A stretch of 36,212 nucleotides of DNA from a virus. Location of the stretch: the IMG/VR virus record IMGVR_UViG_3300041402_000206, positions 1-36,212 of that record; one strand, written 5' to 3'. Below, in pieces: positions 31,049 through 33,372 of the stretch. The position numbers were made by a program, and so were the translations under genes. The number at the start of each line of letters is the position of its first letter. The first letter of the stretch is position 1. The notes beneath the pieces were generated by a model. That model saw only the letters and a program-made list of their open reading frames with translations, was not told the origin of the DNA and made no database searches.

Positions 31049-31252
31049 TTAGGTTTCTTTTATCTGATTACATTTAGCTTCGGGGTCTTTACGGCCTCCA
31101 GCACAACAGTATTTACATTCTTCACAAAGCAAAGTAGTCTCATATTCACAATCAAATTCACCTGTCCATGCATCATAATATCCTAGACAACCAGGTTTTG
31201 CTTTATTTCTCGCATCTTCTAATGATTCAATTTCAATATCTTTTAATCCCAT
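31049..31252 (-). CDS. Cys-rich small protein (67 aa)
   Basis: ATG at 31252 overlaps the end of the helicase-like gene by 10 bases; the SD (AAAAGGAGGATG) lies slightly far upstream. The protein has KPGCLGYY, FDCEYETTLLCEECKYCC and KCNQ, so several Cys that could form a metal site. Function unknown. Confidence 0.6.
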   Translation of the reverse strand: MGLKDIEIESLEDARNKAKPGCLGYYDAWTGEFDCEYETTLLCEECKYCCAGGRKDPEAKCNQIKET

Positions 31253-32289
31253 GAGAAATCATCCTCCTTTTTTGTTTTCTGATTAGCCCAACTCTCAGCC
31301 TGGACATACTTCTCCATCAATACACCCTTTTTCTTCATCTCAACTATCTTACCCCAATCTGTCTGCTCTACTATTCTACCCTTATCGTTAAACTCAAATT
31401 CACAACTAAGATGTTCTATACTATATTTCCTGTCAGTAGCGTTCTTTAGTTTTCTAATAGTGGCAATGCGTCTTCTAGGGTCTAATTCATTTCTATCAAT
31501 ATTAATATATAACTGAGATCTATTAACCGTTCCTTCTCCACCATACCCATGAGTCATACCAGCTTTCTTTTGCATGGCTACAATTGCTACACCTGTGGTT
31601 AATTTATCTGCTATATCTCTCAGGTCGCCAGGGATATCCCCGTAGTTATCGTACTTCTCGTAGTAGTCGATTATATTTATCTTCTCAGGATCTATGTAGT
31701 TATCAAATGAGCTTGTTACATCTTTCTTAGCATAGAAATCTATCTTACTATCCCATTCATCTATGTTAGCATGGAAAGCCTCAAGTTGCACATCTCTTTC
31801 AGAATTAGTCCACTCACTAGAAACATATCTTATCTTATGCTTATCCATATTCATTTCAGTAAAATTTAACAAGAAACAACTCTTACCACCATTGGAAATA
31901 GCAGCCAAAATAATTAAAGAACCTGGATAAATAACTACTTTTTCATGTAGATTTAAAGGCCACTTAATATCAAGCTGTGGAACTCTATCCTCTACCCTCT
32001 TCATTTTAGTTAGCTCAATACTTAGCTTCTTATAGCAACCATTCTTCTTTTTATTCTCCTTAATCTTTCCTTCATCACATAAAGTAGAGAGTATCCACTT
32101 CACCTCTTTGATATCCAAGCTTGTCGTAAGGTCTAAGTCTTTAGTTATTTCACTTAGCCTAAATTCTCCATGAGCTTGATATAGCCAAGTATTAACATCA
32201 TCAAATATAAGCTCATGCTTATCGTTTAGGTTCCTGTCATACGCTAAATCTTCTTCAGCAAGTATTCTGTCTAAATGATTATCTTCCAT
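31243..32289 (-). CDS. Replicative helicase-like RecA-fold ATPase
   Basis: A 348-residue protein. Residues 30-90 look like a winged helix (HGEFRLSEITKDLDLTTSLD). A RecA/DnaB-type ATPase follows: Walker A AISNGGKS (130-137), then RYVSSEW, a Walker B strand INIIDYYE (205-212, D208) and AIVAMQKKAG (236-245) with the sensor Gln. Related phage proteins act as replicative helicase or loader-like ATPases beside an O-like initiator. It is shorter than DnaB (about 470) and lacks its N-terminal hexamer domain. The exact role (helicase or loader) is inferred from the neighbouring initiator and origin. Confidence 0.8.
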   Translation of the reverse strand: MEDNHLDRILAEEDLAYDRNLNDKHELIFDDVNTWLYQAHGEFRLSEITKDLDLTTSLDIKEVKWILSTLCDEGKIKENKKKNGCYKKLSIELTKMKRVEDRVPQLDIKWPLNLHEKVVIYPGSLIILAAISNGGKSCFLLNFTEMNMDKHKIRYVSSEWTNSERDVQLEAFHANIDEWDSKIDFYAKKDVTSSFDNYIDPEKINIIDYYEKYDNYGDIPGDLRDIADKLTTGVAIVAMQKKAGMTHGYGGEGTVNRSQLYINIDRNELDPRRRIATIRKLKNATDRKYSIEHLSCEFEFNDKGRIVEQTDWGKIVEMKKKGVLMEKYVQAESWANQKTKKEDDFSWD

Positions 32290-32684
32290 TAGTCCTCCAA
32301 GAGTTCTGGAGATTCATATATATTCCCGATAATTTCAACACCAAAATCACCTTCCGATATTAAATCTACAAACGGGAAATACGTTCCATCCTTTTGAGCA
32401 GCTAGCCACATAAAAGAATTCAACTCAACTTTACCTATAAACTCCCACTCTTCTTCATCTATAGAAAAAGAGTTATTTGAGTAATATCCTGTTCCAGAGA
32501 TCTTTATGATATCACCCTCACATGTGTTACAAAAATCTGTGAATTGCATGAGTTCATAATTTTCAATATATTGATTACCTGCTGACCCACCATCATAGAT
32601 AACCTCACCACGAAATGTTATAGACCAAAGATCATCTTCTTCCGTTAACATAGTACCGTCATACCAAGCTCTAAACCTTTTCAT
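32289..32684 (-). CDS. YopX-family protein
   Basis: A 131-residue protein matching the YopX family: MKRFRAWYDGTML at the start, MQFTDFCNTCEGDIIKISGT in the middle and VEIIGNIYESPELLED at the end. YopX proteins are common in phages of many hosts but have no settled function. It lies between the initiator and helicase-like genes, overlapping the initiator end by 14 bases. SD GGAGGGAAGACA. Confidence 0.9.
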   Translation of the reverse strand: MKRFRAWYDGTMLTEEDDLWSITFRGEVIYDGGSAGNQYIENYELMQFTDFCNTCEGDIIKISGTGYYSNNSFSIDEEEWEFIGKVELNSFMWLAAQKDGTYFPFVDLISEGDFGVEIIGNIYESPELLED

Positions 32685-33372
32685 TGTCTTCCCTCCATTG
32701 TTTATACTCTGTTTCAGTCATCCATACTGTCTCACCGTCTATCACTACTTCGCAATCCTTAGCCTCTATTACTTCATCCTGCCAACCTTTAGCGTTCAAC
32801 CAAGAGGATGGGTAGGGTATATACTTTCCATTGTCTTTAAGCCAATCCTCGGAAGTCTTAGCCGCCTCAATAGCTATTAGCATGGTTTTTAAAAGATCGT
32901 TAGTAGGGGAAAGCTTATTCCAAGTTTTCTCAGCTTGACCCTTACTTTTCTTTTTAGGATATGCTTTGTAGAAATCTTCAAACCCTGCTGACGGTTTTTC
33001 TTTATTAGGATTAGGTTTAGTATTAGGATTTATAGTAGTGTACCTCTTCCTGTCCTCTTCCTGTCCCTTACCTGTCCTCTTCGTGTCCTTTGCTTCGTGT
33101 AAGTTATTGACTTTTAAGGTTATTAGGTGTCCACTACCTGTCCCCTTCCTGTCCGCTAAGTGTCCTCTACCTGTCCCTAACTCAGAGGTAAATTTACGCA
33201 CTTTATTACGACTCCATCCCCATTGTTTAGCATAACCATTGATAGTCCAATTTCTTTTATTATCGATATCTATACTGAAGCTTACTAGTGCTTCTATGAT
33301 AGTGTAAGCTCTGCCATGAGGCAACAACTTAACTATATTTTTATCTAAGCCGATCCAGTTACCATTTTTCAA
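32671..33372 (-). CDS. O-like replication initiation protein containing the origin repeats
   Basis: A 233-residue protein. The N-terminal 64 residues look like a winged helix (IIEALVSFSIDIDNKRNWTI, then QWGWSRNKVRKFTSEL). A repeated linker follows (residues 66-109, units GTGRGHLADRK, GTGSGHLITLK and RTGKGQEEDRK). The C-terminal domain has FEDFYKAYPKKKSKGQAEKT, then KDNGKYIPYPSSWLNAKGWQ, a pattern shared by many phage and plasmid initiators. The linker is encoded by nine 11-bp iterons (33048-33176). As with lambda O, the winged helix probably binds the iterons and the C-terminal part recruits the helicase. It overlaps its upstream neighbour by 4 bases. Confidence 0.85.
   Translation of the reverse strand: MKNGNWIGLDKNIVKLLPHGRAYTIIEALVSFSIDIDNKRNWTINGYAKQWGWSRNKVRKFTSELGTGRGHLADRKGTGSGHLITLKVNNLHEAKDTKRTGKGQEEDRKRYTTINPNTKPNPNKEKPSAGFEDFYKAYPKKKSKGQAEKTWNKLSPTNDLLKTMLIAIEAAKTSEDWLKDNGKYIPYPSSWLNAKGWQDEVIEAKDCEVVIDGETVWMTETEYKQWREDNEKV
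33048..33176 (-). repeat. Nine 11-bp iterons within the initiator gene: probable replication origin
   Basis: On the minus strand GGACA recurs every 11 bp (plus-strand TGTCC starts: 33051, 33062, 33073, 33084, then 33128, 33139, 33150, 33161, 33172). The unit is close to GGACAGGWAGA. The 44-base step between blocks is exactly four units, so phase is kept. AT-rich tracts lie in the gap (33089-33124) and downstream (33000-33045, with repeated CCTAAT). An array of helically phased repeats inside an initiator gene is the classic layout of a lambda-type origin. Being 11 bp long, the repeat encodes an 11-residue protein repeat every three units. Confidence 0.85.

Follow-up and report, generated by a model that had tools for sequence, protein, structure and literature searches.

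Does a short repeat in the middle of a phage replication gene serve the protein or the DNA? The question is raised by the window analyzed here, the whole 36,212 bases of virus record IMGVR_UViG_3300041402_000206, in which the word GGACA recurs at an 11-bp pitch inside the coding sequence of a putative replication initiator. An earlier note, made from the sequence alone, read these repeats as a replication origin with a layout like that of the lambda origin in gene O, and as a DNA array that simultaneously writes a protein repeat. Below we argue from comparative sequence data that the array is very probably the phage's replication origin, written into the linker-coding sequence of its own initiator, and that the protein repeat has a simpler source.

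The initiator gene and its array

The gene occupies 32671-33372 on the minus strand, comprises 233 codons, and begins with a TTG that overlaps the stop of the methyltransferase gene upstream. Its product matches phrog_9474 (E 3e-20), phrog_270 (E 3e-19), and phrog_9327 (E 3e-18) over residues 88-205; these families are annotated as replication initiation or primosomal proteins, and their homologous C-terminal domain motif, FxxFYxAYPxK ... WLN..W, is present. On these matches, the 233-aa gene is predicted to encode a replication initiator. The C-terminal domain (FEDFYKAYPKK...WLNAKGW; 32674..32994, minus strand), for which we propose a contact with the helicase or its loader, has A1-family homologues at >100 loci with many different N-termini. 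The N-terminal domain is encoded at 33175..33372 (minus strand). An AF2 model, modest overall (mean pLDDT 70, 23-sequence alignment), places helices at residues 11-16, 25-37, 44-51, and 55-66 with pLDDT mostly 75-89, and the best fold matches of residues 21-67, weak at Z about 5, are helix-turn-helix (HTH) or winged HTH DNA-binding regulators. No solved structure matching the initiator by sequence was found. The match to the DnaD-like helicase loaders of PHROG 186 is marginal (E 0.042 over aa 1-65), and there is no Pfam match to RepA_N (PF06970), although a 65-aa domain can escape such a search and the fold searches are weak. Downstream of the initiator lies a gene for a RecA/DnaB-like ATPase (31243..32289, minus strand; phrog_239, E 5e-6), a candidate helicase or loader.

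Nine copies of GGACA stand on the minus strand (TGTCC on the plus strand), all within 33051-33176 and inside the initiator gene. The TGTCC copies start, on the plus strand, at 33051, 33062, 33073, and 33084 and again at 33128, 33139, 33150, 33161, and 33172. Every step within a block is 11 bp. Block A, with five cores, covers 33128..33176, and block B, with four, covers 33051..33088 (both minus strand); the gap between them (33089..33127, minus strand) is 69% AT, and its core-to-core distance is 44 bp, or 4 x 11. The blocks of four and five, the exact steps, and the 44-base gap described in the earlier note were all found again at the same sites. A pattern of four GGACA at 11-bp steps matches the window three times, each time in the array, and is absent from 100 dinucleotide shuffles; the chance expectation of nine phased words is about zero. 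Tandem Repeats Finder, run over the whole window, reports nowhere else an array in which a unit of at least 9 bp is present four or more times.

B-DNA has ~10.5 bp per turn. By arithmetic, an 11-bp step on such a helix rotates each site by only ~17 degrees, and neighboring cores therefore point in almost the same direction; over the 121 bp from the first site to the last, the rotation adds up to ~190 degrees. The proposal that all nine sites face the same side of the helix thus stands for neighbors and fails across 121 bp of B-DNA; all nine would lie on one face only if the DNA were held at about 11 bp per turn. Either the sites follow a slow spiral, or the bound DNA may be held at 11 bp per turn, which would leave the DNA beside the AT-rich tract described below underwound. 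Across the arrays, most blocks are separated by 44 or 66 bp (Rayleigh p about 5e-5, close relatives removed), a distribution that supports a preferred register. Exact multiples of 11 are a tendency and not a rule, since the gap is about 58 bp in contig L001 and a period of 10.5 fits as well as 11.

An AT-rich (74%) tract, ACTACTATAAATCCTAATACTAAACCTAATCCTAATAAA, lies at 33000..33042 (minus strand) and is a candidate DNA unwinding element. Tandem Repeats Finder assigns it a period of 6. It is conserved in four lineages, namely, the window and the contigs L126, L199, and L136 introduced below, which have the pattern ACTACTATA-n-A-n-CCTAATCCTAAACCTAATCCTAA in common; in these four, 9/12 third codon positions are invariant in the tract, compared with 14/95 elsewhere (p 3e-5). 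In the AF2 model, confidence is low at residues 67-125, and folded structure resumes at residue 131. Because the array codes for residues 66-109 and the tract for residues 111-125, both coincide with a predicted disordered linker (aa 67-125). In the wider family, a 6-mer scan of the 90 nt after 150 arrays found no shared unwinding motif; what it picked up was base composition (A 0.39 over the first 30 nt) and C-terminal-domain codons. The 60 nt before and the 60 nt after GGACA arrays have similar AT contents. Only cassettes of the window type have the hexamer tract. GC skew in the window is monotonic and marks no origin.

We note that in initiators with the wing motif VITVCKYDDYQ (L129, L140, L143, L179, L236), the array is interrupted for 66 or 88 bp around the wing-coding segment, as the array in the window is for 44 bp. 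That the gap codes for a wing strand is plausible in these relatives; the model of the window protein does not place such a strand with confidence.

DNA repeat and protein repeat

The 11-residue protein repeat of the earlier note exists as described, with GTGRGHLADRK at residues 66-76, GTGSGHLITLK at 77-87, and RTGKGQEEDRK at 99-109, the third copy being weak. A period of 33 bp corresponds to 11 codons, and the repetition of residues is real, so one could suppose that GTGxGHLxxxK is a feature of the protein linker from which the DNA periodicity follows. The reading frames of the cores speak against this explanation. In the first block, the frames run 1,0,2,1,0 and in the second 2,1,0,2, and because the cores fall in all three frames, a single DNA word yields three distinct pairs of residues; the cores stay fixed even where residues change. 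Given the phage's own codon usage, the encoded residues would be spelled with GGACA at every one of the nine sites with a probability of 1.7e-9, and the lag-11 score of the sequence was not reached in 300 synonymous shuffles (z 3.7). The stretch is, moreover, predicted to be disordered, and we saw no relatives with the same residues and synonymous changes in the cores. The DNA repeat thus exceeds what the protein demands. On the strength of the three frames and the codon-choice probability, we reject a protein-repeat origin of the periodicity, a reading to which we attach next to no probability. What had been presented as double coding is instead a consequence of the DNA repeat, one word read in three frames, and the 11-residue repeat is the shadow of a 33-bp DNA register.

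Relatives of the window bear this out at the level of individual bases. L126, an IMG/VR contig, is 88% identical over the N-terminal 101 residues and has all nine cores in place plus a tenth. L136 and L199 were found by a scan of DNA only (four GGACA at 11-bp steps) and share the nine-plus-one layout of L126. The tenth core lies 12 bp beyond block B in all three, where the window reads GTACA. Over the first 110 residues, the window protein has an identity of 87% with L126, 55% with L199, and 41% with L136; 0/45 core bases vary among the four sequences. Inside the cores, 15/15 third codon positions are invariant, as against 14/95 outside (Fisher p 7e-11, same four sequences). The earlier note had suggested a search of related phages; in these three, every one of the nine words is in its place within the gene, and where that note had named retention of the protein repeat with loss of the DNA repeat as evidence against its reading, the opposite is seen, as cores are kept and residues vary. 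Its statement that the unit and its double coding are specific to this sequence does not hold, because the nine-site layout recurs in L126, L199, and L136 and many further phage initiators contain GGACA arrays with an 11-bp step.

The same alignment bears on whether the array could be functionless, either a neutral tandem duplication of recent date or a microsatellite prone to recombination. Short tandem repeats do arise by slippage, and the copy number of the arrays differs among phages; however, the spacers differ from one another and between relatives, and the cores are fixed down to 41% protein identity. Fixed cores with variable spacers are the reverse of fresh slippage, and we consider a neutral history extremely improbable.

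Exchange of modules and spread of 11-bp arrays

The three relatives also differ from the window in an instructive way. Their HTH, array, and AT tract are as in the window, and their C-terminal domains are other ones, as judged by inspection and PHROG: L126 has no match, L199 matches phrog_18589, and L136 matches phrog_15768. The next gene encodes a DUF6475 protein in L126, a DnaC-like helicase loader in L199, and a DnaB helicase in L136. L001 presents the converse case. Its C-terminal domain is 79% identical to that of the window and its next gene, which follows the same C-terminal domain, is 70% identical to the window's ATPase gene, whereas its N-terminal domain is different and the array at the same gene position has another 11-bp unit, GTGTTACAGGG. 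(The two ATPases differ in Walker A, which is altered to AAISNGGKS in the window protein relative to AGIPNSGKS in L001.) Because L126, L199, and L136 on the one hand and L001 on the other swap opposite halves, the array travels with the DNA-binding domain. This pattern is what one would predict from a division of labor, with array reading assigned to the N-terminal domain and the helicase machinery to the C-terminal domain. These natural swaps show the DNA-binding domain and the array to be one exchangeable specificity cassette, and the C-terminal domain and the neighboring helicase-type gene to be the other module.

To see how general the arrangement is, viral contigs were scanned with the DNA pattern alone (four GGACA, 11-bp steps), which yielded at least 119 contigs. 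Among the matches listed, 31/109 ORFs match DnaD-like phrog_186 and 18/109 match O-like phrog_345, and further ORFs match replisome organizers. As a control, GGACA at 12-bp steps gave phrog_186 matches for 7/87 ORFs among the matches listed; the scans at 10, 11, and 12 bp are compared only by what their matches lie in. Counts based on local domain models (33/116, 12/110, and 4/110) are partly circular because the models were trained on 11-bp sets, and the PHROG counts are not. A complete scan with the scrambled core GAGCA at 11 bp found 72 contigs, with 15/53 ORFs matching phrog_186 and 17/53 matching phrog_7498. GAGCA was accordingly rejected as a negative control, being itself a second real iteron core in initiators, and for the same reason GGACA is not special. 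Since GAGCA arrays also fall mainly in initiators, it is the 11-bp layout that is general, with a core that differs from case to case. Many DnaD-like phage initiators carry GAGCA at an 11-bp step in their linkers (L484-L555, e.g., L542, L533, L554, and L518).

An approach independent of any core gave a broader view. Of 97 distinct proteins gathered by the C-terminal domain alone, many with unlike N-termini and including some low-complexity stretches and some near-duplicates, 88 have a short-period repeat before that domain (p <=0.01 versus codon shuffling). Synonymous shuffling is also passed by 73 of the 88, among which period 11 is the most common (18/73), followed by 12 and 22-24.

Several variants were observed along the way. 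In the GC-rich contigs L488, L500, L555, L152, L203, and L220, 11-bp arrays of GAGCA or GGACA follow arginine/alanine-rich segments (VEAARRAASAKAAA, RRKRQR), and the wing motif is absent. L183 and L205 depart from the strict 11-bp layout and carry long mixed GGACA satellites of 20 and 14 copies, in which the step ranges over 6-13 bp. In L141, L158, L238, and L243, GGACA arrays lie on the strand opposite to genes with a Phage_rep_org_N-like N-terminus, and array orientation is therefore not fixed relative to the initiator gene.

Two cores in related proteins also allow a first look at recognition. At one position of the recognition helix, R is found in 0/9 GGACA and 6/7 GAGCA proteins (Fisher 9e-4, uncorrected), and at another, K is found in 1/9 and 7/7 (Fisher 1.4e-3, uncorrected); the 16 proteins are related (mean identity 0.51 among proteins with the same core and 0.45 across the two cores), and the positions were chosen after looking. 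The association supports, at the sequence level, a direct reading of the core by the HTH domain.

The proposed origin and known systems

DNA-level selection and linkage to an HTH are what the data show, and replication itself is another matter. Iterons often double as control sites, and the array could be an operator, a partition site, or a replication-control site for the same HTH protein or another factor, with replication starting elsewhere. We regard this as unlikely: the array is in the middle of the initiator gene and not at its promoter, the adjoining AT tract is conserved, matches to a blind pattern fall largely in replication initiators, and the window has no other array of this kind. 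The initial proposal of a lambda-O-like origin inside the initiator gene gains support, by contrast, from the initiator-family match, the position of the array between the predicted HTH and C-terminal domains, the AT-rich tract, the helicase-like gene downstream, core conservation beyond that of the protein, and the cotransfer of array and DNA-binding domain. In the origin that we propose, the N-terminal HTH would bind the GGACA cores at about one protein per 11-bp turn, forming two clusters across 33051-33176. The assembled complex would strain and melt the adjacent AT-rich hexamer tract at 33000-33042, as in lambda, and the C-terminal domain would recruit the helicase or its loader; the protein repeat is a by-product of the 11-bp DNA repeat read in three frames.

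Intragenic origins are known. In lambda, four iterons and an AT-rich tract lie in the middle of gene O, and a helicase-loading gene is next (PMC7466680). The window shares with it iterons and an AT-rich tract in mid-initiator gene and a helicase-type gene downstream. The four lambda iterons are 18 bp long and spaced by 20-24 bp, whereas the window has nine 5-bp cores at 11-bp pitch in two blocks, and the window protein has no match to an O-like family. In our lag test, the lambda O iterons (p 0.002) and the TP901-1 rep repeats (0/500 shuffles) served as positive controls; the latter are lag-15 repeats followed by an AT-rich stretch. SPP1 oriL, within gene 38, comprises direct repeats and an AT-rich element, and the partners of its initiator are a loader and a helicase of the DnaB type (PMC6316719); the likeness to the window, drawn from the published description, is that of direct repeats and an AT-rich element within an initiator gene. 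Among RepA_N plasmids, the pSK41 origin is in the central part of rep, where the encoded linker is dispensable, and pPR9 is a natural swap in which the N-terminal domain plus the origin changed and the C-terminal domain was kept (PMC5703833). The central origin and the N-terminal-plus-origin swap resemble what we see; RepA_N boxes contain inverted repeats around an A-tract (PMC7145576), unlike the 11-bp direct repeats of the window. Among DnaD-like and replisome-organizer initiators (PHROG 186, 2514, and 7498; TP901-1 Rep), many have an 11-bp array, often of GGACA, at the same linker position, and the window protein differs from them in its marginal PHROG 186 match and in a C-terminal domain of the PHROG 9474/270/9327 type. 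The 11-bp, three-frame, exchangeable form is thus a variant of the intragenic origins of lambda O, SPP1 gene 38, and pSK41 rep, new in its short cores at one-turn pitch, its split array, its three-frame coding, and the breadth of its exchange. In the openly accessible literature searched, we found no description of GGACA or 11-bp arrays in phage initiators.

A broader proposal, which we put forward tentatively and to which we give somewhat less than an even chance, is that phage origins share a common grammar: an HTH head, cognate short cores at 11-bp pitch, and a melting tract, together one cassette that lies in the sequence for the initiator's disordered linker and is exchanged en bloc between different helicase-recruiting C-terminal domains, with the pitch kept in different hosts and with different cores while core and recognition helix coevolve. 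To our knowledge, the origins of uncultured phages are almost all unknown, and 11-bp arrays in initiator-gene linkers offer a simple sequence rule for locating them. The natural series of matched reading heads and sites could also teach a recognition code. Were the DNA in the bound array kept at 11 bp per turn, which amounts to underwinding by about 4-5%, the pitch as such would contribute to melting of the neighboring tract. The case also illustrates how the residues of a protein linker can be set by a regulatory DNA array, and how a phage may acquire a new origin specificity yet keep its helicase-loading machinery.
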